NCBI GenBank assembly: GCA_017744365.1
Contig: JAGIBL010000005.1
Coordinates: 1-64,000, forward strand
Origin: Nocardioidaceae bacterium
GTDB lineage: Bacteria > Actinomycetota > Actinomycetes > Propionibacteriales > Nocardioidaceae
Direction of reading: 5' to 3'
Length of the DNA: 64,000 bases
A program made the translations under genes and the position numbers. Numbering within the stretch: position 1 is the stretch's first letter; each line of letters begins with the position of its first letter. Shown piece after piece: positions 127-60,812 of the stretch. The notes below the pieces were generated by a model. The model ran no database searches, was not told the DNA's origin, and worked only from the letters and a program-made list of their open reading frames with translations.

Positions 127-215
127 CGCGCACCCACCCAGATGACCGCCAGCAGCGCGACGGCAAGGACGAGGGAGGTGATGTAGAGGAGGCCGGACCA
201 GTCGCGCTCGTTCAT
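123..215 (-). CDS. Small single-pass membrane protein (30 aa)
   Basis: This very short frame encodes 30 residues: a charged N-terminus (MNERDW) followed by about 20 hydrophobic residues ending in VWVGAR-like residues, i.e. a single transmembrane segment. Its ATG at 213-215 overlaps the TGA of the upstream gene and its own TGA overlaps the ATG of the next. Such ATGA junctions on both sides make a real gene likely despite its size. Function unknown; comparable tiny membrane proteins are common in actinophage genomes. Confidence 0.55.
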   Translation of the reverse strand: MNERDWSGLLYITSLVLAVALLAVIWVGAR

Positions 216-610
216 TCCGCCAACCTCCGCTCCCTCTCCCGCAACGCCTCCAGTCGATAGCCGGCGAGGTAGCGCGCGAGGTTCAGCGACGGGTTCGGCT
301 GGAAGTACGGCGATCTGGAGACGCTGATCACGAAGGCGTCAGCGATCGCGTCGGCCAGGTTGGTGATGTAGACGTCGAGTTCCACGTTCGACTCGGGCAG
401 GTCGTTGACGTCGAGCAGCAGAGGGCCCGACCCGGAGGTTGCTACACGCGGTTCTGGGGCCGCGGAGTCAGTGCCCAAACCAGCCTGACTCGCTCCCGGG
501 TCGGGGGCTTGGGGAGAGTTGGAGCAGACGAGCCACGGGCAAGCGGCATCGGCGCTGTAGCCGAGTGCGTCGCAGCGACAGACGGCCGAGTTCGGGAGGT
601 TGGTGGTCAT
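212..610 (-). CDS. Hypothetical element protein (132 aa)
   Basis: The N-terminal 35 residues carry four cysteines (C11, C13, C24, C29), possibly a small metal site. A low-complexity Pro/Ala/Ser/Gly linker follows, then a C-terminal part (about residues 75-132) that looks helical and ends in an Arg/Glu-rich stretch. I recognise no family. It is coupled by ATGA overlaps to the genes on both sides and is part of the leftward element operon. Confidence 0.55.
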   Translation of the reverse strand: MTTNLPNSAVCRCDALGYSADAACPWLVCSNSPQAPDPGASQAGLGTDSAAPEPRVATSGSGPLLLDVNDLPESNVELDVYITNLADAIADAFVISVSRSPYFQPNPSLNLARYLAGYRLEALRERERRLAE

Positions 611-1200
611 GAGGCGGCCTCAGTGATCAGGTCGGCCCAGTGGGCACGGTGGGACGCAGCCACGCGCGCCTCACCATCATCACCTCCAGCATCCCCGAGA
701 GACTGGCCGCAGATGCAGAACTGATTCCATCCACCATGCGCGGTGTATCGGCGCGGGGTTGTCAGGTCGAAATACCGATCCTGGTGCGCCGCCAGCAGAT
801 CGACGCAGCTCGCGATCACTGGATTAGCGCCGGCTAGCCAACGCCATCCCATGTCCCACAGTGCGTCCTCGACCGCCTGGACGATCTTCTCCTTCGGTGG
901 CGCCAGTGCTGGGTCGGCCGCGTCAGAGTCCCAGTCGTCGCCTGCGTGGTACTCGGCTAGTCGCCGGTTGAGCACGACATGCAGGACCTCATGAAGGAAC
1001 ACCCGCTCGTTCCACTCCCGCAACCTGATCCGCTGGATCGGCTGATGGTCATAGCCGAAGTCGCCAGCGACACCCAGCACGGTCAACTCCGGCTCGTAGC
1101 GGACCTCCCACGTCTCTTCGCCGATCTGGACCTCGGCACCATCTTCGGGAGCGGCGGCGACGCCGATGCTCTCCAATGCTGCGTCCTCTCGCGCGCTCAC
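607..1200 (-). CDS. HExxH-motif putative metalloprotease-like element protein
   Basis: The GTG at 1198-1200 is chosen because it overlaps the TGA of the upstream gene (GTGA); an upstream ATG at 1233 would overlap that gene by 37 bases. About residues 65-75 carry FLHEVLHVVL, a zinc-peptidase HExxH motif, in a helix as in IrrE/ImmA-type (M78) or small phage peptidases. The C-terminus has a CxC...H...H pattern (FCICGQSL, then AASHRAHW) that could bind a second metal. The third zinc ligand cannot be assigned. ImmA-like enzymes cleave phage repressors, but that role here is only a possibility. Confidence 0.55.
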   Translation of the reverse strand: MSAREDAALESIGVAAAPEDGAEVQIGEETWEVRYEPELTVLGVAGDFGYDHQPIQRIRLREWNERVFLHEVLHVVLNRRLAEYHAGDDWDSDAADPALAPPKEKIVQAVEDALWDMGWRWLAGANPVIASCVDLLAAHQDRYFDLTTPRRYTAHGGWNQFCICGQSLGDAGGDDGEARVAASHRAHWADLITEAAS

Positions 1201-1538
1201 GACGCCTCCCGCTTCACCTTGCGGATCGCGCACAGGTCGGCCTCGGCCTCGGGATGCGCCAGGTACCGACCGCTGTCGCCTGGCTTGCCCTCGTCGTACA
1301 CCAGCTGCGCTTCACCCTCGGCGTCCCGGATGAGCACGCTGAGTGGCTGGCCGATCTCGCGGGCCACGAACGCCTCACGGGCGTCCGGGAAGTGCAGGCG
1401 ACGGAAGGACTCGCACACCACCTTGAGTTCACGGTCGAGCGTCAGCATGTCCATGTACCGCTGCTCGCGGACCGCCTTCCAGCCGGCCGTCTTGAGGTCA
1501 GCCATGGCGGTCAGGAGGTTGGGGTCGAGGGTGGTCAT
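1197..1538 (-). CDS. Hypothetical element protein (113 aa)
   Basis: The ATG at 1536-1538 (MTTLDPNLLTAMADL) overlaps the stop of the ParB-like gene as ATGA. A longer frame starting at 1622 would run through the upstream gene and is rejected. The protein looks soluble and mixed alpha/beta, with a helical N-terminal half and a beta-rich C-terminal half (QPLSVLIRDAEGEAQLVYDE). No family is recognised. Confidence 0.5.
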   Translation of the reverse strand: MTTLDPNLLTAMADLKTAGWKAVREQRYMDMLTLDRELKVVCESFRRLHFPDAREAFVAREIGQPLSVLIRDAEGEAQLVYDEGKPGDSGRYLAHPEAEADLCAIRKVKREAS

Positions 1539-2353
1539 GCGGCGTCGGTCTTCCACCAGCCCTGGAGCTTCTTCCCGCCCTTGCCGCTGTTCAGCACCTC
1601 GACCGTGGCGGCGGCGACGCACTCGGCGAAAGGCTTCTTGGTGTGTTCCTTGAGGACAGCCGCCTTGCCCAACAGCCCCTTGACGCCACCGCGCATGTTG
1701 CGCAACTTCAGCACGGCCAGCTCGTCGGGCAGCTCACCGTTGTAGCGCGCGCAGAGAAGGCCGATCCCGTCGATGACCTTCGACTCCATGCCCGCCGACC
1801 CGTAGGCACTGTCGATAATGCGGAGGGTCCGACCGAGAACCTTCGCGCCGGCGCGGTCGTAGACGCGTCGAAGAGTTCCGACAGCGCCGATGCAGCCCTC
1901 CTCCTTGGAGTGGGAGACGACGTATCCGCTGGCGCGGACGATGCGATCAATGTCAGCTTCGATCGGACGACCGGCCTCGACGCCGACCAGATACTTGTCC
2001 ATCGCGCCGACCGTCAGGGTGTCGTTCAGCTTGAGGAACTTCTCGGCTTCCTCTTCCTCGGTGAGGCCGACGTAGGTCCAGCACTGAACCTGGTGGGTGT
2101 CATCGAACTTCTCGCGGAGGGCGACGGCGCGGTGCTGGCCGTCGATGATGTAGAACTTGCCCGCGCGCTCGTTGACGACGAGTGTGCCGATCTGCTCGTG
2201 GTCGAAGTGCGCGACGAGGTGGTCCACGCGGTACTGCTTCAGCTCGCGCTGAGCTTGGTCGCTCACGACCATGCGATTGAGCGTCACCCAGCGCAGACGC
2301 GCCTGTCGTTCGATCTTCGGGCCAGGCTTCGGGATAGAGTTGGTCTCAGACAT
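1535..2353 (-). CDS. ParB/Srx-domain-like DNA-associated protein (272 aa)
   Basis: Residues about 20-110 fit the ParB N-terminal/sulfiredoxin fold. The block FYIIDGQHRAVALRE carries the DGQHR signature that replaces the usual GxxR/GERR box in phage and plasmid ParB-like proteins. The following segment (CWTYVGLTEEEEAEKFLKLN) is typical of this group, which I associate with DUF6551. The C-terminal half is helical and basic. No ParA partner is visible nearby, so a role in regulation, replication control or DNA protection is as likely as partition. It overlaps the upstream gene by 8 bases. Confidence 0.6.
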   Translation of the reverse strand: MSETNSIPKPGPKIERQARLRWVTLNRMVVSDQAQRELKQYRVDHLVAHFDHEQIGTLVVNERAGKFYIIDGQHRAVALREKFDDTHQVQCWTYVGLTEEEEAEKFLKLNDTLTVGAMDKYLVGVEAGRPIEADIDRIVRASGYVVSHSKEEGCIGAVGTLRRVYDRAGAKVLGRTLRIIDSAYGSAGMESKVIDGIGLLCARYNGELPDELAVLKLRNMRGGVKGLLGKAAVLKEHTKKPFAECVAAATVEVLNSGKGGKKLQGWWKTDAA

Positions 2354-3245
2354 GGGTTGCCTCCTTGGCGATCTGCTTCTTGAACCGGTTGAGAGCGGCG
2401 ATGGACGCGGACAGGGAGGCGACCCATTCGTCTACCTGCCCGAAGTCGACCTCGTCGAGGTCGATGTACTGGAGGGCCGAGACCGCGTTCTCGAAGCCGG
2501 TCACCGAGTTCTCGACCATCTGGGTGTGGTCGAGTCGACGAGTGCCGCGGATGACCCGGTCTGCGGGGATCTCGATGTCGAAGTCCCGGGCGATCTGCCG
2601 GATGGTCTCTTCTGAGACGCCGACCTTCTTAGGCATCTGCCGCGAGGAGTAGCCCTCATCTGCCAGGTTGCGGATCATCTCCGCACGCATGTCGCGGGTG
2701 ACGGTGGCTCCGCCAGGCTCGCCCTTGATCTTGCGGACCACGTTGGCGCGCGACAGATTCTCTTCCGCCTTCGCCTCCTCGATGGCGGCGTCGAACTCCT
2801 CGGGCGTCGCCTGGTCGGCCATCACTGCCATCTCGGAGCCGTTGTTGTAGAACTCGGGGGCAATGTCCTTGACCGAAGGGATCCTGGTGATATCACCACC
2901 GGGGTCCTCGCGGATCGCAGCGTTGTCGCCCAGGCTGCGCACCGTTCCCTCGGCCTGCGCAATGCGAATCGAGCGGCCCAGCGCGTACTCCGCGCGTCGG
3001 ACCATCTCGGTCGCGTCGAGCTGGATCTCCTTGGAGAGGCGAAGCTCCTTGGTCCATGTCTCCGCTGTCGCGATCTGCGCCTTGGCGAGTGCGATCTCGG
3101 CGGGGCCCGTCGTCTCGACAGCCGTGGCGAGCCAGCGCCTGGCCTCTTCGAGCATTGAGACCACCGAGACCGCAGTCTTGTCGACGAGCGCCAGCGCGGA
3201 GCCGGTCTCGATGATCTCGCCCGTGGTGGTGTTGACGACGGTCAT
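2346..3245 (-). CDS. Phage-type DNA-binding protein with C-terminal HTH (299 aa)
   Basis: The N-terminal third is a long helix containing AEYALGRSIRIAQAEG, a segment I know from actinophage regulatory proteins. Around residues 190-215 a helix-turn-helix is readable (EGYSSRQMPKKVGVSEETIR), followed by a basic stretch. The C-terminal 60 residues are again helical. The gene is coupled at both ends (ATGA with 3242-3487; 8-base overlap with the ParB-like gene). A DNA-binding role beside the ParB-like protein is inferred; the exact function is unknown. Confidence 0.5.
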   Translation of the reverse strand: MTVVNTTTGEIIETGSALALVDKTAVSVVSMLEEARRWLATAVETTGPAEIALAKAQIATAETWTKELRLSKEIQLDATEMVRRAEYALGRSIRIAQAEGTVRSLGDNAAIREDPGGDITRIPSVKDIAPEFYNNGSEMAVMADQATPEEFDAAIEEAKAEENLSRANVVRKIKGEPGGATVTRDMRAEMIRNLADEGYSSRQMPKKVGVSEETIRQIARDFDIEIPADRVIRGTRRLDHTQMVENSVTGFENAVSALQYIDLDEVDFGQVDEWVASLSASIAALNRFKKQIAKEATHV

Positions 3246-3487
3246 GCCGACCGCCTCTTGCTGCGGCCGGTCTGACCCGGGAGGCCGGTGACCTTCGCAT
3301 CGGTGGTCGCCTCCGGCAAGCGGGTGTGCATCTCGACGATGGTTCGGACCTGCTCATCGGTGTAGCGAACATCGAAGCGACCGAGTCGGACGTGCGGCCA
3401 GCCCTTCTGTCGGCGCAGGTCGGCTGCGCGGGCAGGGTCGATGTGGAGGACGTTCTCAGCCAGTTCGGCCTCGGTCGTTAGGTTCAT
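3242..3487 (-). CDS. Small excisionase-like/HTH protein (81 aa)
   Basis: The central part (ARAADLRRQKGWPHVRLGRF, then DVRYTDEQV) resembles the winged-helix fold of small excisionase or phage activator proteins, which read a Trp-Pro-x-hydrophobic helix followed by a beta wing. The tail is basic (GRSKRRSA). It is coupled by ATGA overlaps to genes on both sides and lies directly downstream of the XRE regulator, the usual position for an early control protein. The excisionase assignment is tentative because no integrase is in view. Confidence 0.5.
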   Translation of the reverse strand: MNLTTEAELAENVLHIDPARAADLRRQKGWPHVRLGRFDVRYTDEQVRTIVEMHTRLPEATTDAKVTGLPGQTGRSKRRSA

Positions 3488-3741
3488 GCCGACGCCGCCA
3501 GATCGCGCTTGCGCTCCAGCACTACGCGGGGGCAGTTCAAAACGCGGGCCATGTCGCTGATCAGCGCCGGGGTCGCGTTCCGGGTGCCCTTGATGATCTC
3601 CGAGACGAGGCTCTGGGATTTGCCGAGTCGCTCGGCGAACTCCTTCTGCGTCAAACCTGACTGACGAAGGGCGTACGCGACTGCTTCCGGCTCATGATCA
3701 AGCGGGGTGTTCCGCTTGTTGCGGAGGGTCTTCGCGGTCAT
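3484..3741 (-). CDS. XRE-family helix-turn-helix regulator (85 aa)
   Basis: The HTH_3 domain spans about residues 20-75, with LTQKEFAERLGKSQSLVSEI as helices 2-3. ATG at 3739-3741 is preferred; a TTG at 3777 in the same frame would place coding sequence over the operator palindrome TTCGCGAA (3765-3772). The protein has no sensor domain, so it is a simple repressor or Cro/antitoxin-like protein. It is the first gene of the leftward operon and diverges from the rightward HTH gene at 3899, as in a phage lysogeny switch. Confidence 0.75.
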   Translation of the reverse strand: MTAKTLRNKRNTPLDHEPEAVAYALRQSGLTQKEFAERLGKSQSLVSEIIKGTRNATPALISDMARVLNCPRVVLERKRDLAASA

Positions 3742-3898
3742 GGCCCGAAACTTACGTGCGAACTTTCGCGAAGTCAATGCAGTTCGCGGAAGTGCGCGCG
3801 AACTATGCGCCTGACCTGCGTGTTCGAATAATTACACGCATGTAATTGCGAAGAAGTGCGCACTAGTCCGCAGGTTGCGTTCGCATAAGTTCGCAGCC
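3742..3898. promoter_or_regulatory. Divergent operator/promoter region of the element
   Basis: This 157-base, visibly AT-richer gap lies between divergent regulator genes and is full of symmetrical sites. TTCGCGAA lies at 3765-3772. AGTTCGCG (3781-3788) faces CGCGAACT (3797-3804) with an 8-base spacer. ATTACA/TGTAAT around CGCA lies at 3831-3846, and two direct GTTCGCA copies lie at about 3879-3895, next to the rightward start. Repeated half-sites of one type (GTTCGCG/GTTCGCA) suggest cooperative binding by one of the two flanking HTH proteins. No clear -35/-10 pair is assigned. Confidence 0.6.
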
Positions 3899-4522
3899 AT
3901 GCTTGAAGGCATGTCAGACCTCAAGGCGCAGCACCAACGGCCGGATGGCGCACTTATCGAGCGCGCCATGGCAGGGCCGCCGAAAGTAAGTGCGCGCGAG
4001 CTAGGTCGGCGTATCGGGATGTCGGATGCTCGCGTGCGCCAGATCATCAATGGCTACAGCTCGCAGGGCGGGCAGGTCTTGACCGTGCATGGTCCTGCGA
4101 CCACCGTTGCACGGATCGCGCTCACGCTTGGCATCACGGCTCAAGAGTTGCGCGATGTAGGCCGTGCTGACGCTGCGGAAGCCCTTGTTCGAATTGGGCC
4201 CAACAGCTTCGCCTGGAAGGCGAGCGAAACCGACGACGCGAAGGCGCTGGAGCGACTGGTTGCCGAAGCTGCCGTTAAGGTCGCCGCGCTCAAGATCGAA
4301 TTGGCTAGCGCTGAGTCGCAGTTGGATGACCTCACGCGACGTCTGGCGCAGGCCGGACTTGAGGCACGTCGAGCCAAATCCACATCACCCGCCATGCCTC
4401 CCGATGATCCGGCCTATCGTCGGGCCGCGGAACTGCTCGTAGAGACGGCCGCAGAGCAAGTCGCCATGGAGCGCGAGTCCGACCCCGCTGCACGCCCCGA
4501 TGACATGCGGGATGCCCAATAG
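3899..4522 (+). CDS. HTH regulator with coiled-coil (immunity-repressor-like)
   Basis: Residues about 25-50 hold a helix-turn-helix (VSARELGRRIGMSDARVRQI), and about 105-150 form an Ala/Glu/Arg-rich predicted coiled coil. The C-terminal tail is acidic and disordered. The ATG at 3899 is chosen over a TTG at 3875 in the same frame; ATG at 3911 is also possible. It reads away from the XRE gene across the operator cluster, which suggests that one of the two is the maintenance repressor of the element. The coiled coil would allow oligomerisation on repeated operators. Confidence 0.6.
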   Translation: MLEGMSDLKAQHQRPDGALIERAMAGPPKVSARELGRRIGMSDARVRQIINGYSSQGGQVLTVHGPATTVARIALTLGITAQELRDVGRADAAEALVRIGPNSFAWKASETDDAKALERLVAEAAVKVAALKIELASAESQLDDLTRRLAQAGLEARRAKSTSPAMPPDDPAYRRAAELLVETAAEQVAMERESDPAARPDDMRDAQ

Positions 4523-4670
4523 TCGAATTCGGACGAATGGGACCAATGGACCCACCCGACCGCCATACGTTCTGACTACCCCAAATCAGGTAAATCGGGA
4601 CTAGAAGGGCGGGTCCGAAGTGGAAGACAGGGACACCACGCGCTGCATGCTGACCAGGCGAGGGAGGCGA

Positions 4671-4901
4671 ATGTTCGAGCAGGCGGCGGCATGGGTCGGT
4701 TGGATCCTCGGGATGGTGGTTGTCATGGGTGCCGCGTTCTTAGAAGCGTTACCGGCGGTGGTCGCCGGCATCGTGCTGTTGATGGCAGCGGCTACCTGGA
4801 CTTGTGTCCTGGCGATCAATCGACAGACCGACGTGGTGCGAGCTGCATATGAGATGGGCCGGGCGACGGAGCGGGGCGGATCAGTGAGACCGATGCGTTA
4901 G
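4671..4901 (+). CDS. Small two-pass membrane protein (76 aa)
   Basis: The ATG at 4671 is chosen because GAGGGAGG ends five bases before it; a GTG at 4620 would add 17 residues but has no such site. Two hydrophobic segments (about residues 5-25, WVGWILGMVVVMGAAFL, and 30-50, VVAGIVLLMAAATWTCVLA) predict a hairpin in the membrane with a charged tail. Small membrane proteins near phage attachment ends are often superinfection-exclusion or conversion factors, but nothing here proves that. Confidence 0.5.
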   Translation: MFEQAAAWVGWILGMVVVMGAAFLEALPAVVAGIVLLMAAATWTCVLAINRQTDVVRAAYEMGRATERGGSVRPMR

Positions 4902-4916
4902 TCGCTGACTAGGTGT

Positions 4917-5087
4917 ATGTGCACCTCGGTACAGCGTGACCGCGTGCCGAACCAGCCAGCCACACCGCATCGCACCGTGCGCATCCCTGACGAGATCTGG
5001 GAGCCGGCGATCGCCAAAGCTGCGGCCGAGGGGACGACCGTCACCGCCGTCATCATCGACGCTCTCGTGAGGTTCCTGCGCGACTGA
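4917..5087 (+). CDS. Ribbon-helix-helix (Arc/CopG-like) small protein
   Basis: The frame encodes 56 residues from ATG 4917, or 47 from GTG 4944. The conserved part reads HRTVRIPDEIWEPAIAKAA, then TTVTAVIIDALVRFL: a beta strand (TVRIP) followed by two helices, as in Arc/MetJ/CopG dimers and typical of actinobacterial element proteins. The TGA overlaps an interleaved pair of inverted repeats at 5085-5109. Autoregulation or directionality control is plausible. It is the last gene before the attachment site. Confidence 0.6.
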   Translation: MCTSVQRDRVPNQPATPHRTVRIPDEIWEPAIAKAAAEGTTVTAVIIDALVRFLRD

Positions 5088-5109
5088 CGCAGTGTTGATG
5101 CGTCAACAC
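5085..5109. repeat. Two interleaved inverted repeats
   Basis: TGACGCA (5085-5091) pairs with TGCGTCA (5099-5105), and GTGTTGA (5092-5098) pairs with TCAACAC (5103-5109). Both are perfect 7-bp palindromes sharing the middle, so they cannot form as hairpins together. This fits a protein-binding site (ribbon-helix-helix operator or integrase/excisionase arm site) better than a terminator. It lies 84 bases before the attachment core. Confidence 0.5.
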
Positions 5110-5192
5110 ATCGGGGGGACCGAACCCGGCTGAGCCATGCCTGAAAGACCCCAGCCACGCTCAGGAGACCTTGCCGTGCGGGGGAGTCGCCT

Positions 5193-5215
5193 CGTTCGAT
5201 TCCCGCCAGCTCCAC
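5193..5215 (+). other. Attachment site: ssrA (tmRNA) 3'-end fragment
   Basis: The core GTTCGATTCCCGCCAGCTCC followed by AC matches the 3' end of bacterial tmRNA: T-loop TTCGATT, the 3' T-stem strand, then the acceptor strand ending CAGCTCCA. The upstream bases cannot form the matching T-stem or the rest of a tmRNA, so only the last 22 or so bases are present. This is what a displaced att copy looks like after integration into ssrA; the reconstituted ssrA should lie beyond the left edge. A tRNA with the same 3' end is the alternative. Confidence 0.7.
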
Positions 5216-5221
5216 TTTCCG

Positions 5222-5256
5222 GCGATGCCCGGGACCCACGTGGTCCCGGGCATCGC
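5222..5256 (+). terminator. Strong hairpin, likely the original ssrA terminator
   Basis: A perfect 15-bp stem (5222-5236 with 5242-5256; core GATGCCCGGGACC) closes a 5-base loop CACGT, seven bases after the ssrA-like end. It would terminate ssrA in the element-free chromosome. No clear U-tract follows, as is usual in actinobacteria. Confidence 0.65.
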
Positions 5257-5311
5257 TGCGCTTCAGGAGTCCGTACGGCGCCCTCCGCGCCCGGCTTGCA
5301 GCCCCGCAGCC

Positions 5312-6391
5312 TCACCGGCGCGCCGGTGAGGCGTCCTTGGCTGCATCGGCGTGACCGAGCTCGTCCAGGAGTCCGCCGAGCTCGAGCCAGAGCTGGGCGG
5401 CCGAGCGAGGCGTGCCGAGGTCCATCGCCTGCGCCGTGGCCTCCTGGTACGAGACCTCCGCAGCCTGGGCATCACCGCGGGTCGCCTCGAGCCGGCCCTT
5501 GAAGGCCTTCACCCAGACCTGGATGGGTCCCGCTTCCCGCGGTGTCAGCGCCGCGCAGCGACTGATCGCGTCGGCGGCCTTGTCGATGCGATCGACCAGG
5601 AGGTAAGCCCGCGCGCGCCCGAGTTCGTACCGGGCGAGGTCGACGGGATTCGTCGGCAGCCATGCCAGTTCGCGCTCAGTCTGCTCGAACTCGCGAAGCG
5701 CCCGATCGACGTCCGGTGGATCGAGGTCGAGCAGCGTGAGCGCGAGGGTCCCACGGACCCGCGGCAGGTTGCGTGAGTCCTCACCCTCCTCGAAGGCCAC
5801 GACAGCCTGGTTGAGGTAGGTCACGGCTTCGGGATGCCTACCCTCGAGCGACTCGATGATCGCCAGGTTCCAGAGAGCCGAGGCGCGACCGAGGACGGTG
5901 TCGTGACGATCTGCGTCGGCGAGCGCCTTCTTGGCGATGATCCGTGCCCGGACGAGGTCGCCGCGTGAGGTGTGCGCGCTGCCGACCGTGACGGTCAGCT
6001 GGACCGCCTCGGTGAGGTGATCGACGCCGAGTCGCTCGATCGTGTCGCGCGCGTCGTCGAGGACCCGCGAGGCGCCGTCGAAGTCTCCGATCTCGCGCCG
6101 GCATCGGCTCAGCGCGATGAGGCCCCTGAGCCAGGCAGCGTCGGGCATGGGCTCGTCCGCGAGCTGCTCGAGCACGGTGATCGCCTGGCGAAACTCTCCG
6201 CCGGTCTCCAGGGCCGCCGCTCGCAGCCGCCTCGCGTCCCGGCGCAGCCCGACGCCAGCGTCCGCGCTTGCCTCGGGATGGGAGTCCAGTGCTGCCAGCA
6301 CCTCGTTGGCCCCCTGCATGCCGGCCTCGACATCGCCGGTCGTGTACGCCAGCTCGGCGCGATCCAGAGTCACACGCAAGTCGGTCATCAT
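5312..6391 (-). CDS. TPR-repeat protein, paralogue 1 (359 aa)
   Basis: The whole chain is built of helix pairs of tetratricopeptide type; readable units include VQLTVTVGSAHTSRGDLVRA, ALWNLAIIESLEGRHPEAVT and AQLWLELGGLLDELGHADAA. There is no HTH, kinase or signal peptide, so it is a cytosolic TPR-only protein. The ATG at 6391 (MMTDLRVTLDRAEL) is chosen; an upstream frame extension to 6529 is poorly coding. Length and order match the two paralogues at 6802 and 7908. Tip residues such as ExLxxLGxDHLTEAVQLTVTV are shared, suggesting a common ligand type. It diverges from the small peptide gene at 6644. Confidence 0.75.
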   Translation of the reverse strand: MMTDLRVTLDRAELAYTTGDVEAGMQGANEVLAALDSHPEASADAGVGLRRDARRLRAAALETGGEFRQAITVLEQLADEPMPDAAWLRGLIALSRCRREIGDFDGASRVLDDARDTIERLGVDHLTEAVQLTVTVGSAHTSRGDLVRARIIAKKALADADRHDTVLGRASALWNLAIIESLEGRHPEAVTYLNQAVVAFEEGEDSRNLPRVRGTLALTLLDLDPPDVDRALREFEQTERELAWLPTNPVDLARYELGRARAYLLVDRIDKAADAISRCAALTPREAGPIQVWVKAFKGRLEATRGDAQAAEVSYQEATAQAMDLGTPRSAAQLWLELGGLLDELGHADAAKDASPARR

Positions 6392-6643
6392 GTCAACGAT
6401 TGTGCCTGAGTGTGTCCGAATGCGCGGGAAGCTGTGCGGAAGGGCTGTGCCCTGAAGTCGCGGTGCGGCACCGAAATGCCCGCTCAAAAACGGCACAAAA
6501 TGCGCAACTGGACTAGACCACTTGTTCACTCTGACAACTCTAGGTAACTAAAGGCAGCACGCCTCTGAAACATGAGTTGTCTTCGTGTTACTCCTTCTGT
6601 CAATCACGTCACGAGGACGTGCTGACACGAAGGGCTGTTGGTC
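6392..6643. promoter_or_regulatory. Divergent intergenic region between TPR protein 1 and the peptide gene
   Basis: This 252-base gap is distinctly AT-richer than its surroundings around 6480-6620. It contains an 8-bp inverted repeat GACAACTC (6533-6540) / GAGTTGTC (6574-6581) with 33 bases between the arms, each arm close to a GTAAC or GTTAC pentamer. Both flanking genes read outwards, so it must hold at least two promoters. I cannot fix -35/-10 boxes. Confidence 0.45.
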
Positions 6644-6769
6644 ATGAGCGGAATCAAGAAGGTTGTCGTCGCGGGTGTCGTAGCGCTGGTGAGCGTGATC
6701 GGGATCGCGGGCACGACGGTTGCAGTCGACGGGGGCGCCGCTGTTGCCGACCCGAAGCTCTGCTGCTGA
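6644..6769 (+). CDS. Small exported peptide, candidate pheromone precursor (41 aa)
   Basis: The ATG at 6644 opens 41 residues: a basic start (MSGIKK), a hydrophobic core (VVVAGVVALVSVIGIAG), then a short polar tail ending AVADPKLCC. That is a Sec signal-like N-terminus with an A-x-A site (AVA before DPKLCC), leaving perhaps a 6-residue Cys-Cys-ended product or a slightly longer one. It is flanked by TPR-only proteins on both sides, an arrangement like Rap/Phr. The Shine-Dalgarno is weak (GAAGG about 10 bases ahead). Alternatives are a small lipoprotein-like or membrane peptide, or a Cys-containing precursor of a modified peptide. Confidence 0.6.
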   Translation: MSGIKKVVVAGVVALVSVIGIAGTTVAVDGGAAVADPKLCC

Positions 6770-6776
6770 GGTGCTA

Positions 6777-6811
6777 GGGCGGGTGACAGCTGAGCGGCCA
6801 GTCACCCGCCC
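6777..6811. terminator. Bidirectional hairpin after the peptide gene
   Basis: GGGCGGGTGAC (6777-6787) pairs perfectly with GTCACCCGCCC (6801-6811), giving an 11-bp GC stem with a 13-base loop. It starts 8 bases after the peptide stop and overlaps the last codons of TPR protein 2, so it can end transcription from both convergent genes. Confidence 0.65.
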
Positions 6812-7911
6812 AGGCGCATCGAGCGCAGACCGCGTGCCGCGGCAGCGCTCCGGAACGCGTCGTGGGCTCCGTCGCGGTCGCCCAGCTCGTCGAGGACGCT
6901 GCCGAGGTCGAACCAGGTTTGCGCGACGGCATGGTCGGCGCCGGCGCCCGTCAGGAGGAGCGTCGCGCGCCGGTAGTGGTCCTTGGCTTTGTCGATGTCG
7001 AACTGAGCCGCTGCGATCTGCCCGCGCCGGATGAAGACGGCGGCGTTCAGTGCCTGAGCGTCCGCCGGTGCGAGCCGGGCGCATTCGTTGATCTGGGCCT
7101 CGGCGTCGACGAGATCGCCGAGAATCAGGCTTGCATCGCACCGGCTCAGGCGCTGGCGTGCGAGATCGGTCGTCGAGACCGGCGCCCATGCGAGCTCGAG
7201 GTCGGCCTTGTCGAGGTTCTCCACGGCCGCGGTCACGTCGGGGTCGTCGAGTCCCAGCTGGAGATCGGCCACCATGCCACGGATGCGTCCGAGGTTCCGG
7301 GAGTCATCGCCGGCCTCGAAGAGCGAGAGCGCGAGCTTCGCGAGGTGCAACGCCTTCTCGCGCGAGCCCTCGGCGGCCTCGATCACGCTCGCGTTCCAAT
7401 AGGCGGAGGCGAGCGCCACCGGCGAGTTCACCCGCTCCGCGACCTCGATCGCGCGCTTGAGCGTGCGCATCGCGTAGCGGTTGTCGCCGCGCAGGTAGAC
7501 AGCTCCCGCAACCGTGACGGTCAGCTGGATCGCCTCGGTCAGGTGAGCGAGACCGAGCTCGTCGATCGTCGCTCTCGCGTCCTCACCAACGGAGATGGCC
7601 TTGCTGTACTCGCCCCGGTCGCGGTGGCAGCGGACCAGGCTCATCACAACGGACACCCATGCTTCGTCGGCGTGCGGATCCGCGACAAGCTTTGTCAGGG
7701 TCTCGATGGCCCCGTCCAGGTCACCGTCGAGCTCCTGGGCCGCGGCGCGGAGCCGGTTGGCAGCGCGGACGAGCTCGACGGGTGCTGATCCGTCGACGCT
7801 GCCGAGAACACCGACTGCTCGGTCGTGCGCCGTCCTGCTGTCGCGGGTTGCCAAGGCGAACTCGCCCTCGTCGACGAGCGCCTGGAGCTCGCGCACCTGC
7901 TCCGGGGTCAC
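6802..7911 (-). CDS. TPR-repeat protein, paralogue 2 (369 aa)
   Basis: This TPR-only protein has the same size and layout as its neighbours: an N-terminal helical bundle (VRELQALVDEGEFALATRD), then repeated units such as TIDELGLAHLTEAIQLTVTV, ASAYWNASVIEAAEGSREKA and AQTWFDLGSVLDELGDRDGA. No HTH, membrane segment or enzyme motif is seen. The GTG start overlaps the stop of TPR protein 3 (GTGA), so the two are one transcript. The 3' end meets the peptide gene convergently over a shared hairpin. Peptide or partner-protein binding is inferred from the fold only. Confidence 0.75.
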   Translation of the reverse strand: MTPEQVRELQALVDEGEFALATRDSRTAHDRAVGVLGSVDGSAPVELVRAANRLRAAAQELDGDLDGAIETLTKLVADPHADEAWVSVVMSLVRCHRDRGEYSKAISVGEDARATIDELGLAHLTEAIQLTVTVAGAVYLRGDNRYAMRTLKRAIEVAERVNSPVALASAYWNASVIEAAEGSREKALHLAKLALSLFEAGDDSRNLGRIRGMVADLQLGLDDPDVTAAVENLDKADLELAWAPVSTTDLARQRLSRCDASLILGDLVDAEAQINECARLAPADAQALNAAVFIRRGQIAAAQFDIDKAKDHYRRATLLLTGAGADHAVAQTWFDLGSVLDELGDRDGAHDAFRSAAAARGLRSMRLGG

Positions 7912-9044
7912 CCGGCTGCTCCTGCTGACGTGAAGCGTCCCCTGGGGCGCAGCTGCCCCGTCGCGGCCGCAGCTTGCTTGAAGGCCTCGCGTGCGCCGTC
8001 CGGCTCACCGACCTCGGAGAGCAGCGTTCCCAGCTCGAACCAGAGCTTGGCGGCCTTCCGGTCCGCCCCGATCGCGGTGAGCTTGTACACCGCGCTGCGG
8101 TAGGACTCCCGTGCGTTCTCCGTGCGGCCGCGTGCCGCCTCGAGCTGGCCGCGAAGAGCGAGTGCGGAGACCTCGACGAACGTGGCCGCGATCGTCGAGG
8201 AGAACACCTGGTCGAGCAGTGTCTCCGCCCCGTCGAGGTCCCCGGCGAGGAACCTGGCACGCGCGAGCGTTTCCAGGTTGTCGATGACGTTGATCGGGCT
8301 GCAGCGCGTCCAGGCGAAGTCGTCGGCCGCTTGCTCGAGGAGTGGCACCGCAGCATCGAGATCGGGAGGCTCGAGGCGAAGGTGAAACGTGCCGAGCACG
8401 CCGCGGAGCTGAGCTGCGTAGGTGTGGTTTCCGACGGACTCGAACGTCTCGAGTGCCTGTGCGGCCAGCGCGAGCGCGTCCTCGACATCGCCGTCGTGGG
8501 ACTCGATGATGCTCAGGTTCCAGAAGGCAGCAGCTCGTGCCTCGGGTAGGCCGACGCGCTCGGCGGTCGCCGCCGCGTTGCGCAGAATGCGCCTGGCATG
8601 GCGCACGTCGCCGCTCGACCAGTAGGACGAGGCCAGGGTCACCTGCAGCTTGATCGCGTTGTCGGTGGCGTCCAGCCCTGCTTCGCGGATGTTCTGCAGC
8701 AGGCCCTCGCCGCGCGCCAGGGACCGCTCGAGGTCGCCGATCTCGCGGTAGCACCAGATCAGCGTCATCGAGGCGCGCACCCAGCGTCGTCCCGGGTCGC
8801 GGACTGCGACGATGCCCTCCAGGGCTTCGATGGCGTCAGCTGTCCGGCCGACCGACTCGAGCGCGAGCGCCCGGGTGAGCAGGGCCGCCGGGAGGAGGTC
8901 GTCGTCAGATCGCCCGCGCACCAGGGAGAGGATGCGCTCCGCCTGCTCGAGAGCCTGGCGCCCGTCGCCGGTCTCCAGGGACAGCTCGGCGTAGTCGAGT
9001 GCCGCCCGGAGGTCGGCGTACTCGTCGGCGTCCACGTGCCCCAT
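7908..9044 (-). CDS. TPR-repeat protein, paralogue 3 (378 aa)
   Basis: First gene of the leftward TPR pair. Repeats are readable throughout (DALDYAELSLETGDGRQALE-type start, AAFWNLSIIESHDGDVEDAL, AKLWFELGTLLSEVGEPDGA). The motif x-AxxWNLSIIE is common to all three paralogues at the same place, showing duplication rather than chance TPRs. ATG 9044 (MGHVDADEYADL) is chosen; a GTG at 9095 in the same frame abuts AGGAGG with no spacer and is less likely. It diverges from the HIT gene over about 70 bases. Confidence 0.7.
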   Translation of the reverse strand: MGHVDADEYADLRAALDYAELSLETGDGRQALEQAERILSLVRGRSDDDLLPAALLTRALALESVGRTADAIEALEGIVAVRDPGRRWVRASMTLIWCYREIGDLERSLARGEGLLQNIREAGLDATDNAIKLQVTLASSYWSSGDVRHARRILRNAAATAERVGLPEARAAAFWNLSIIESHDGDVEDALALAAQALETFESVGNHTYAAQLRGVLGTFHLRLEPPDLDAAVPLLEQAADDFAWTRCSPINVIDNLETLARARFLAGDLDGAETLLDQVFSSTIAATFVEVSALALRGQLEAARGRTENARESYRSAVYKLTAIGADRKAAKLWFELGTLLSEVGEPDGAREAFKQAAAATGQLRPRGRFTSAGAAG

Positions 9045-9115
9045 TCTGCCGGGCTTTGCGCGCCCAGTGTCCGGGTTCGGCCGGACCGCGGACACCTCCT
9101 ACTACCCTCCTCCCC

Positions 9116-9526
9116 ATGAGCGACTGCCTCTTCTGCTCCATCGCGGCGGGGGAGATCGCGGCCGAGGTGGTGCTCGCCGACGAGGACTTCGTGGCCTTCC
9201 TCGACATCCGCCCGGTGTTCAAGGGGCACACTCTCCTGGTCCCGCGGGAGCACGTCGTCACGCTGCCCGATCTTGCCGCCGGCCTGCGCGACGGCTTCCT
9301 CGCCCAGGCGCAGCGGCTGGCGACGGCGATGGTCGAGGGGCTCGGCGCGCAGGGCTCGTTCGTGGCGATCAACAACACGGTGTCGCAGTCGGTGCCGCAC
9401 CTGCACTGCCACGTGGTGCCGCGCACCAAGGGCGACGGGCTGCGCGGGTTCTTCTGGCCGCGCACCAAGTACGCCGACGGCGAGGCGGCCACCTATGCCG
9501 CCAAGCTGCGGGCCGTCCTCGACTGA
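9116..9526 (+). CDS. HIT-family nucleotide hydrolase (136 aa)
   Basis: The histidine triad HLHCH lies near residue 95 in VPHLHCHVVPR, and the family's N-terminal CLFC (residues 4-7) and central HTLLVPREH are present. HIT proteins hydrolyse adenosine 5'-phosphoramidate-type or dinucleoside polyphosphate substrates in the cytosol. The length is typical of bacterial Hint/HIT proteins. The ATG at 9116 begins at the conserved MSDCLFC. It is a single gene, with the next gene converging on it 2 bases away. Confidence 0.9.
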   Translation: MSDCLFCSIAAGEIAAEVVLADEDFVAFLDIRPVFKGHTLLVPREHVVTLPDLAAGLRDGFLAQAQRLATAMVEGLGAQGSFVAINNTVSQSVPHLHCHVVPRTKGDGLRGFFWPRTKYADGEAATYAAKLRAVLD

Positions 9527-58351: not shown

Positions 58352-59859
58352 GCCGGCCGCTCGTCGAGCTCGCCGGGGTCTCCAAGCGCTTCGGCGGGGC
58401 TACCGCGCTGGCCGAGGTGGACCTGACCATCCTCACCGGCGAGGTGCACTGCCTGGTCGGCGAGAACGGCGCCGGCAAGTCCACCCTCGGCAAGGTCGTC
58501 GCCGGGGTGCACCGCGCCGACGAGGGCATCCTGCGCCTGCGCGGCGAGCAGGTCACCTTCCGCTCGCCGCGGGACTCGATCGCCGCGGGCATCGCGTTCA
58601 TCGCCCAGGAGCTGGCGATCGTGCCGGACCGGTCCGTGCTCGACAACGTGTTCCTCGGCCGCGAGGGCAGCGCGCTCAGCGTCGTACGACGCCGGGCGCA
58701 GCTCGCCGAGTACGCCGCGCTCGCCGCCCGGACCGGCTTCGACGTGGACCCGCTCGCGCGGGCCGGGTCGCTGCGACTGGCCGAGCAGCAGAAGGTCGAG
58801 ATCATGCGCGCGCTGGCCCGCGACGCCGAGCTCATCATCATGGACGAGCCGACCGCCTCGCTCGGCGGCGCCGAGGCCGACCAGCTGCTGCGGATCATCG
58901 AGGACCTGCGCGCCGAGGGCCGCACGGTCGTCTTCGTCACCCACTTCCTCGCCGACGCCCTCGCGGTCGCGGACCGGGTCACCGTGCTCAAGGACGGCCG
59001 CCTGGTGCGCACCTCGCCGGCGGCCGGGGAGACCCCGGACAGCCTGGTCACCTCGATGCTCGGGCGCAGCCTCGGCTCGATGTTCCCCGACGCCCGCGTG
59101 GACGGCCCGTCCGACGGCGACGCGGTCCTCCAGGTGCGCGCGCTGAGCCGGCCCGGGGAGTTCGCCGGCGTCGACCTCGAGGTCCGCCCCGGCGAGATCG
59201 TCGGCATCGCCGGCCTGGTCGGCTCCGGGCGCACCGAGCTCGTCGAGACGCTCGTCGGCCTGCGCCGCCCCAGCGGCGGCTCGGTCCGGGTGGCCCGCAC
59301 GAACGGCCCCTTCCGCTCGCCCCGGCACGCCCAGCGTGCCGGCCTGGTGATGGTCCCGGAGAGCCGCAAGGACCACGGGCTCGTTCTCGGCCGGACCGTC
59401 CGCGAGAACGTCACGCTGCCGCACCTGGACCAGGTCAGCCGGCTCTCCTTCGTCTCCCGGGCCCGGCAGACCGCCGTCCTGGAGACGCTGCTGCCCGAGG
59501 TCGGCCTGGACCCGCGGCGGATCGACTCGCCGGTCGGCGAGCTGTCCGGCGGCAACCAGCAGAAGGTGATGTTCGCGCGCTGGCTGTTCGAGCGGCCGGC
59601 CCTGCTGATCGCCGACGAGCCCACCCGCGGCGTCGACGTCGGCGCCCGCGCCGGCCTGTACGCGCTGCTGCGCAAGGTCGCCGACGAGGGCTCCGGCGTG
59701 CTGTTCGTCTCCTCCGACAACGAGGAGGTCATCGGGCTCGCCGACCGGGTGCTGGTGATGCGCGCCGGCCGGGTCGCGGGCGAGCTCACCGGCGAAGTCA
59801 CCGAGGACGACGTCCTGCGGCTGATGTTCGCCGACGAGACGAGGGAGGAGATCGCATGA
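58348..59859 (+). CDS. Ribose-type ABC transporter double ATPase (503 aa)
   Basis: Two ABC domains: GENGAGKSTLGKVVAGVHRA near 38-57 with LRLAEQQKVEIMRALARDAE and LIIMDEPTASL. The second domain has GLVGSGRTELVETLVG and LSGGNQQKVMFARWL, then LLIADEPTRGVDVGAR. The altered second Walker A (GSGRTE) is normal for RbsA/MglA-type proteins. Coupled to HyuB, so the transporter likely imports the hydantoinase substrate. Confidence 0.9.
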   Translation: MSRPLVELAGVSKRFGGATALAEVDLTILTGEVHCLVGENGAGKSTLGKVVAGVHRADEGILRLRGEQVTFRSPRDSIAAGIAFIAQELAIVPDRSVLDNVFLGREGSALSVVRRRAQLAEYAALAARTGFDVDPLARAGSLRLAEQQKVEIMRALARDAELIIMDEPTASLGGAEADQLLRIIEDLRAEGRTVVFVTHFLADALAVADRVTVLKDGRLVRTSPAAGETPDSLVTSMLGRSLGSMFPDARVDGPSDGDAVLQVRALSRPGEFAGVDLEVRPGEIVGIAGLVGSGRTELVETLVGLRRPSGGSVRVARTNGPFRSPRHAQRAGLVMVPESRKDHGLVLGRTVRENVTLPHLDQVSRLSFVSRARQTAVLETLLPEVGLDPRRIDSPVGELSGGNQQKVMFARWLFERPALLIADEPTRGVDVGARAGLYALLRKVADEGSGVLFVSSDNEEVIGLADRVLVMRAGRVAGELTGEVTEDDVLRLMFADETREEIA

Positions 59860-60812
59860 GCACGCTCGGTGCCCAGCGCTCGCACATCAAGCTGGCTCGT
59901 GACTACGGTGTGCTGCTCAGCGCCGTGGGCCTGTTCGTCGTCCTGGCGGTGGCCTCGGCCCCGTTCCGTACGGCGACCAACCAGCTCAACCTGCTCGACC
60001 AGTGGTCGACCATCGGGATCATCGCCTGCGGCTCGACGCTCTGCATCGTCGCCGGGGGCTTCGACCTGTCGGTGGACGCGATCTTCGCTCTCTCCGGGGT
60101 GATCGCGGCCTGGACGACGGTGCACCTCGGCAGCCCGGTGCTGGGGCTGCTGCTCGGCATGGCCAGCGGCCTGGTCCTCGGCCTCTTCAACGGGGTGCTC
60201 GTGACGATCGGGAGGATCAACCCCTTCGTCGCGACGATCGCCTCCTCGGTGGTCTTCCTCGGCATCGCCCAGCTCATCACCCAGGGGTCGGTGATCGCGG
60301 TCGACGACACCGCCTTCTCCGAGCTGGGTCTCAAGCGCTTCGGCGACCTGACCCTGCCGGCGCTGGCCTTCGTGGTCTTCGCGGTGCTCTCCGCGGTGGT
60401 GCTGGCCCGGACCGTGGTCGGCCGCAAGCTCTACGCGGTCGGCGGGAACTACGAGGCGGCCCGGTACTCCGGCATCGCGGTGGACCGGGTGCAGATCTTC
60501 GCGTACGCGGTCTCCGGGCTCTCCGCGAGCATCGCCGGCGTCCTGGCCGCCAGCCGGAACTCCTCGGGCCAGGCCGACCTGCGCACCGAGCTGGCCTTCC
60601 AGGCCATCACCGCCGTGGTCATCGGCGGGGTCAGCATCTACGGCGGCGAGGGCACCATCCCGCGCGCTCTCGTCGGGGTGCTGATCCTCGCCCTCATCGG
60701 CAACGGCTTCAACCTGCTCGCGGTCGATCCGGCCTACCAGCAGGTCCTTCTCGGAACCATCATCGTGCTCGCCGTCGCGGTCGACGCCTGGGCACGACGA
60801 ACCCAGCGCTAG
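59856..60812 (+). CDS. Ribose-type ABC transporter permease (318 aa)
   Basis: Eight to ten membrane segments with the RbsC/BPD_transp_2 signature VGRKLYAVGGNYEAARYSGI (residues about 185-205). N-terminal DYGVLLSAVGLFVVLAVASA begins the first helix. It works with the double ATPase and the binding protein on either side in the same operon. Confidence 0.9.
   Translation: MSTLGAQRSHIKLARDYGVLLSAVGLFVVLAVASAPFRTATNQLNLLDQWSTIGIIACGSTLCIVAGGFDLSVDAIFALSGVIAAWTTVHLGSPVLGLLLGMASGLVLGLFNGVLVTIGRINPFVATIASSVVFLGIAQLITQGSVIAVDDTAFSELGLKRFGDLTLPALAFVVFAVLSAVVLARTVVGRKLYAVGGNYEAARYSGIAVDRVQIFAYAVSGLSASIAGVLAASRNSSGQADLRTELAFQAITAVVIGGVSIYGGEGTIPRALVGVLILALIGNGFNLLAVDPAYQQVLLGTIIVLAVAVDAWARRTQR

Follow-up and report, generated by a model that had tools for sequence, protein, structure and literature searches.

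Do actinobacteria use short exported peptides, bound inside the cell by tetratricopeptide repeat (TPR) proteins, as signals? The question is raised by a stretch of 64,000 nucleotides (the window), which is the start of contig JAGIBL010000005.1 (C11) in the assembly GCA_017744365.1 of a Nocardioidaceae bacterium of the genus Marmoricola (4.76 Mb, completeness 100). A first-pass annotation, made from the DNA letters, described there three paralogous TPR-only proteins of 359, 369 and 378 residues around a 41-residue gene with an exportable build and the tail DPKLCC, and proposed a Rap/Phr-like system. We consider it quite probable that the locus is an RRNPP-like form of actinobacterial peptide signalling, in which an exported and trimmed peptide would be re-imported and bound by the TPR proteins.

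The peptide gene and its three TPR neighbors

All parts of the annotated locus were found. The propeptide gene lies at 6644-6769 on the forward strand (ATG at 6644, stop codon ending at 6769) and encodes MSGIKKVVVAGVVALVSVIGIAGTTVAVDGGAAVADPKLCC, a 41-aa product with a basic start, a hydrophobic core, an A-x-A site and a Cys-Cys (CC) end. No other signal-peptide-like open reading frame (ORF) in the window ends in CC, and the peptide has no Pfam match. The three receptor-like TPR genes, all on the reverse strand, are TPR1 (5312-6391, 359 aa), TPR2 (6802-7911, 369 aa) and TPR3 (7908-9044, 378 aa). Their reading frames are intact, Pfam finds TPR repeats and no helix-turn-helix (HTH) domain in any of them, and identities to TPR2 of 39% for TPR1 and 36% for TPR3 bear out their description as paralogues. 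Three receptor genes around one ligand gene is literally what the window holds; the module spans 5312-9044, whereas the annotation had begun it at 6392 and so omitted TPR1.

Receptors and CC-ended peptides occur together

Most members of the receptor family have an N-terminal XRE HTH before the TPR region, and the window trio represents HTH-less branches. The nearest paralogue of TPR2 in the genome is P0004 (467 aa, contig C12), with an XRE HTH and the same TPR region; a 41-aa ORF built like the window peptide, with the tail RGLWCC, lies convergent with it, 4 bases beyond the P0004 stop. A receptor homologue in Marmoricola sp. URHB0036 is likewise accompanied by a convergent 40-aa ORF, with the tail ADRICC. 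Pfam detects HTH_3 in P0004, P0005, P0006 and P0007.

Small ORFs were called by a simple hydrophobicity rule rather than by SignalP: they had to be 25-75 aa long, with a basic residue N-terminal to a hydrophobic stretch of 11 residues, none of them charged or an amide. In an order survey of 391 genomes with the seven-row alignment A1 (E<=1e-40), at least 64 genomes matched, from 4 of 40 genera and all in the Nocardioidaceae (family f1); the count is a lower bound, as four candidates per genome were scored. The loci comprised 78 stretches outside contig C11, and 90 receptor ORFs were counted, including the three of the window. Among signal-peptide-like ORFs in about 643 kb scanned, 69 of the 99 within 800 bp of a receptor ended in CC versus 1 of the 59 farther off, an enrichment beyond chance, and that lone distant ORF (L065) is 1.6 kb away from its receptor. 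The CC end, put forward earlier as something new at this locus, is real, and it is a signature of the family rather than a local peculiarity.

A class survey with the 72-row alignment A2 (E<=1e-25) matched 99 of 394 genomes and 37 of 137 genera, and 82 of the listed loci, all outside the order survey, were examined (22 returned, one of them a second copy of L121, and 60 fetched). Pairing, taken as an ORF ending exactly in CC within 900 bp of a receptor, was counted over 164 loci in total. It was found at 60/80 loci in f1, where four more have CC plus one or two residues and one genome (G183) is counted twice, as L121 and L136. Families f17 (5/5), f23 (20/21), f12 (2/3), f24 (1/1), f30 (1/1) and f41 (3/5) also have it, as do f20 (9/31, plus one), f29 (1/5, plus two) and Streptomyces plasmids (1/2), while f22 (0/9) and f40 (0/1) do not. 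The f20 count includes Nonomuraea gerenzanensis (L216), assigned there by 76% identity to L176, and its additional case is a downstream ORF of L178, distinct from the divergent peptide of that locus. In f1, 68 of the CC ORFs are convergent and downstream and 3 are divergent and upstream, versus 20 divergent upstream and four more downstream in f23. We take the persistence of the pairing through a change in gene order as the best evidence for a joint role of the two genes, and on this comparative evidence regard a functional link between receptor and peptide as likely.

Farther out, a sample of 246 genomes from the phylum gave 24 with a match at E<=1e-40, including five that are the window's own or of the same class. 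Of 21 loci from this sample, two have CC ends and one CCG, and at 9 of the 18 others there is a short signal-like ORF whose tail is of the Trp-Pro type. Part of f20 has a divergent peptide with other ends, such as WGWPG and WQWPI, and in f22 a divergent signal-like small ORF is present at 8/9 loci, none of them CC-ended. The Nonomuraea gerenzanensis peptide has the tail GDAGCC, and the one on the plasmid of Streptomyces sp. ADI95-16 is a "hypothetical protein" (WP_123083198.1) with the tail IPLCC.

Arrangements vary within these families. At L155, L157, L158 and L164, one receptor is flanked by two different CC peptides: the divergent one is a 40-mer, and the convergent one, of 53-54 residues, has the end DYCC, DFCC or LYCC. 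A second group of f20 receptors (L188-L192, L194-L196, L201, L203) has no CC peptide; at most of these loci, some 0.64-0.79 kb upstream and in the same orientation, lies a conserved ORF of 46-52 aa (MQVKKVLKYG...-like). L109 is a second array of several receptors with one peptide, namely four tandem HTH-bearing receptors (3033-8520) and a peptide (2869-2982) ending DRGTCC. On the receptor-domain tree, TPR1 and TPR2 group with three of the four L109 receptors, with long branches and a support of 94 that falls short of the tool's star, and TPR3 is placed apart from them. Other HTH-less receptors are present at L102 (two genes, 3014-5235) and L119 (one, 3022-4155). At L048, L052, L053 and L055, an HTH-bearing receptor shortened after about 280 aligned positions adjoins a full-length one, and such shortened receptors are possible regulatory partners. 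The receptor of L215 (MT836207.1, a "Bacteriophage sp." from human faeces) is 95.6% identical to that of L086, and this record is probably a bacterial contig; we dropped the idea of a phage origin, which had rested on this one bacterial-like contig.

Peptide tails, selection and promoters

Allowing up to two residues after CC and counting tandem copies, the order survey gave 74 peptides, of which 70 terminate exactly in CC and four have one extra residue. Among the 70, Trp is found at -3 in 50 and Arg at -6 in 34. Tandem peptide genes, two or three, are present at seven loci.

Over 20 non-overlapping pairs of peptide genes from f1 and f23, the pooled in-frame ratio of non-synonymous to synonymous differences (pN/pS) was 0.41, and 0.36 after correction (dN/dS). 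The same test gave 1.25 and 2.00 in the two other forward frames and 1.13 in the antisense frame. The last eight codons had a pN/pS of 0.33 versus 0.43 for the rest, and the sole pair above 1 was L076/L098 (1.29). Judged from these ratios, the peptide frame is under purifying selection in the relatives.

A quick tree built from 84 receptor domains shows ARTGWCC, RNVWCC, RNIWCC and RPxGCC tails tracking receptor clades: a WCC label required 10 changes versus a shuffled mean of 28.2, and none of 500 shuffles was as low. The label "no CC peptide" required 12 changes versus a shuffled mean of 13.2 and is unclustered, so that peptide losses, or misses by the filter, are scattered.

In the receptors, conserved polar residues Arg171, Thr210, Asn250 and Arg282 (P0004 numbering) fall in helices 160-175, 202-218, 241-257 and 281-296 of the model, which would be the inner helices of the TPR repeats. 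Outside the window, 94% of the 105 rows for receptors of CC loci have Asn250, versus 0/7 non-CC rows of f20, and Asn283 is present in 8/9 CC rows versus 0/7 non-CC rows of that family. L176 and L193 have a CC peptide but no Asn250. Because the f20 non-CC group acts as one lineage, this correlation is a lead only, and 13 other columns separate the group just as fully. We also considered receptor Cys228, which is Cys in 76/85 rows of f1 and 3/5 of f17, as a partner of the peptide's Cys pair, and rejected it because the position is Ala, Ser, Val or Leu in every other family.

The peptide genes also have common promoter boxes. In 46 dereplicated 150-bp regions upstream of them, compared with 200 Markov shuffles, TTG[AC]CA was found in 22 (shuffle mean 3.9, maximum 10) and TTGCCA in 15 (shuffle mean 1.9). 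TTGACA doubles as a -35 consensus, but TTGCCA does not.

Predicted structure and profile matches of the receptors

The predicted structures of P0004 (mean predicted local distance difference test, pLDDT, 95.4) and TPR2 (model mc3bc00f882f8, mean pLDDT 95.6) are all-helical TPR superhelices. In VIA-align, P0004 aligned with NprR (Z 23.8, root-mean-square deviation (rmsd) 6.3, 346 residues) and TPR2, from end to end, with the Rap structure 4gyo (Z 25.3, rmsd 6.0, 345 residues). A profile search matched PlcR across HTH and TPR regions (E 1.3e-13), with designed TPR proteins scoring higher, and Rap was absent among the best 60 of 159 profile matches. In Foldseek, PlcR ranked 32nd and Rap 49th. The best single-sequence match of P0006 was ComR, over the HTH. 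For the peptides, we found no similarity by sequence.

Organization of the window locus

The peptide ORF is divergent from TPR1, whose start is 252 bp away, and convergent with TPR2, whose stop is 32 bp away; TPR3 and TPR2 are joined by a four-base overlap, GTGA, between the stop of one and the start of the other. TPR1 retains the WN and RN motif positions; the RN pair is kept in TPR1 and TPR2 and lost in TPR3. The intergenic region between TPR1 and the peptide gene (6392-6643) is probably a promoter and operator. It contains two 8-base dyads, GACAACTC ... GAGTTGTC with a gap of 33 (6533-6581) and CTTCGTGT ... ACACGAAG with a gap of 36 (6581-6632), and a probable Shine-Dalgarno sequence, GAAGGG (6629-6634, forward strand), nine bases 5' of the ATG. 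Its sequence TGACAACTCTAG resembles boxes 5' of the L052, L055 and L109 peptide genes.

Ending next to TPR1 is a gene cluster (212-5087) with a G+C content of 0.64-0.66 versus mostly 0.70-0.76. It encodes a DUF6551 protein weakly similar to DndB (1535-2353), a small XRE protein (3484-3777) and several further proteins without a Pfam match, and it resembles the border of a mobile element. A selenocysteine tRNA (tRNA-SeC) called by ARAGORN at 60151-60236 lies within an ABC transporter permease-like ORF (59856-60812) and is probably a false positive.

Proposed mechanism and alternatives

In the signaling model, the 41-aa product would be exported via the general secretory route and cut near the A-x-A site, freeing a C-terminal piece of about DPKLCC (codons 6749-6766, forward strand), the proposed end of the mature signal, or somewhat longer. 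An oligopeptide permease would import the freed peptide; the genome encodes twelve SBP_bac_5 (Opp/Dpp-type) proteins, which are candidate binding proteins. The peptide would then sit in the concave TPR groove and change the shape of the receptor. In the HTH-bearing relatives the receptor would probably control genes, its own peptide gene included, while the window receptors, because they are HTH-less, would most likely target a partner protein or else compete with the HTH-bearing paralogue encoded elsewhere in the genome. From export and trimming through re-import and binding to output, we infer these steps.

The core of the first proposal, an exported peptide with cytoplasmic TPR receptors, is supported by the pairing across families, the selection on the peptide frame, the clustering of tails with receptor clades and the predicted TPR fold. 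Several observations weigh against it, as do the limits of the Asn250 correlation given above. Conservation of the small ORF beside TPR genes, a check named in the first-pass annotation, holds for the family, but a search of 148 genomes gave no close orthologue of the window's own peptide: besides its own genome six match at E<=0.1, all weakly (E 0.04-0.09); because the window ORF is so isolated, selection was measured on relatives alone. The upstream region in the window has no TTG[AC]CA box on the peptide strand. Receptors without a CC ORF by the filter are found at 16/80 f1 loci and throughout f22, although among the 16 L053 (a filter miss) and L065 (1.6 kb off) do have one and L118 and L123 lie at contig ends; relaxed inspection added L053 and L063 as CC loci, and the XRE-TPR receptor of Nocardioides sp. 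21Sc5-5 (L015) has no CC peptide by the filter. A second HTH-bearing paralogue in the window's genome (contig C10) has no CC peptide alongside, nor have the HTH-less receptors of L102 and L119. Common descent by itself could produce the clustering of tails and receptors. The TPR fold is not specific to RRNPP proteins, as LGN, with Z 26-27, scores higher than Rap and NprR.

Among other explanations, the one that we take most seriously, though we doubt it, accepts the pairing of peptide and receptor as real and makes the HTH-less trio decoys, which would bind the same or related peptides or dimerize with P0004 and so damp it. The HTH-bearing paralogue in the genome, which has a separate WCC peptide, the loss of the conserved RN in TPR3, the long branches of TPR1-3 and the HTH-less L102 and L119 receptors without a peptide of their own would all fit decoys, but the three frames are intact, TPR3 and TPR2 form a coupled pair, and the peptide gene adjoins the trio and not P0004, whose peptide has a different tail. 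Less probable, in our view, is an extracellular or membrane action of the peptide, as a bacteriocin-like or small toxic peptide, with a neighboring XRE-TPR protein that only regulates the peptide gene on another cue. A short, hydrophobic product with a basic start, boxes common to the promoters and the general habit of XRE proteins to guard toxin genes are compatible with this. Against it, the invariant signature is in the tail (exactly CC in 70/74) and not in the hydrophobic part, the last eight codons are themselves under purifying selection, the tails track receptor clades, the flanks have no recurrent immunity or transport gene (crude ORF calls), and HTH-less receptors such as those in the window are unable to regulate a promoter directly.

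Somewhat less probable again is a precursor of a ribosomally synthesized and post-translationally modified peptide (RiPP), or a sensor of redox state or metals that is anchored in the membrane and works through the two Cys, the TPR protein being the regulator. Two terminal cysteines are indeed unusual in a plain pheromone, but some lineages have a Trp-Pro tail in place of CC, and, close relatives aside, the pairs share no recurrent neighboring gene family (crude ORF calls, flanks of 3 kb), the largest cluster of neighbors in f1 covering 10/78 loci; for want of such a recurrent neighbor we set aside a modified-peptide cluster. It seems very improbable to us that this ORF is open by chance, or that it marks a cis-acting RNA or a leader that senses cysteine. 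Its lack of a close orthologue, and Cys codons before the stop that are reminiscent of cysteine-responsive leader ORFs, could be read that way, but selection in the family fits the peptide frame alone, the signal-peptide form is retained, there is no Rfam match within 5100-9200, and the next downstream gene is on the opposite strand, so that there is nothing to attenuate.

Relation to known systems

Peptide signaling of the RRNPP/RRNPPA kind in Bacillota (PlcR-PapR, NprR-NprX, ComR-XIP, Rgg-SHP) likewise has a TPR receptor next to a short exportable propeptide, the C-terminal end of which varies by clade. Tandem propeptides are present in both (PMC11343458). The receptors there, all but Rap, usually have an N-terminal XRE HTH, as does our family; the window trio lacks it, like Rap. 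Members with the HTH would, as PlcR and ComR do, have DNA as their target. The differences are the host phylum, the CC (or Trp-Pro) peptide ends and the peptide gene mostly on the opposite strand.

For Rap/Phr itself, the likeness is a TPR-only receptor of 360-380 aa adjoining a peptide gene of about 40 codons, and the alignment of the TPR2 model with Rap. Genes for Phr follow rap directly and on the same strand, whereas in the window the peptide is encoded on the forward strand and the three TPR proteins on the reverse. There are also three receptors per peptide in the window, most relatives bear an HTH, no response-regulator partner is known for the window receptors, and their sequences are no nearer to Rap than to other TPR proteins. 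On gene order and the absence of a special sequence link we reject strict Rap/Phr membership, and the label given in the first-pass annotation was too narrow. Arbitrium (AimR/AimP) of Bacillus phages also combines an HTH-TPR receptor with a short peptide, but our sole match to a phage record, MT836207, is the unverified contig with a receptor 95.6% identical to a bacterial locus.

The detection search in PMC10075063 covered Firmicutes and viruses, and the same source describes signals of Actinomycetota as typically small molecules and peptide systems as belonging to Bacillota. The strings "actinobacteri" and "actinomycet" are absent from the main text of PMC9765709 and PMC12700828. In the literature searched, which lay within open sources other than preprints and subscription journals, we recognized no published description of a family of receptors with CC peptides in actinobacteria, and within that literature an RRNPP-like family of Actinomycetota with CC-ended peptides is not described.

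We lean toward a broader reading, in which the Actinomycetota would have their own widespread peptide quorum sensing, made of XRE-TPR receptors and propeptides with a Cys-Cys end (Trp-Pro in some lineages) as the recognition anchor, clade-specific tails, tandem propeptides and arrays of several receptors; the window would be a rare version in which all receptors are HTH-less. If this is true, these soil bacteria and antibiotic producers would gain a testable peptide language, and the Cys-Cys end raises redox- or disulfide-gated signaling as a question.

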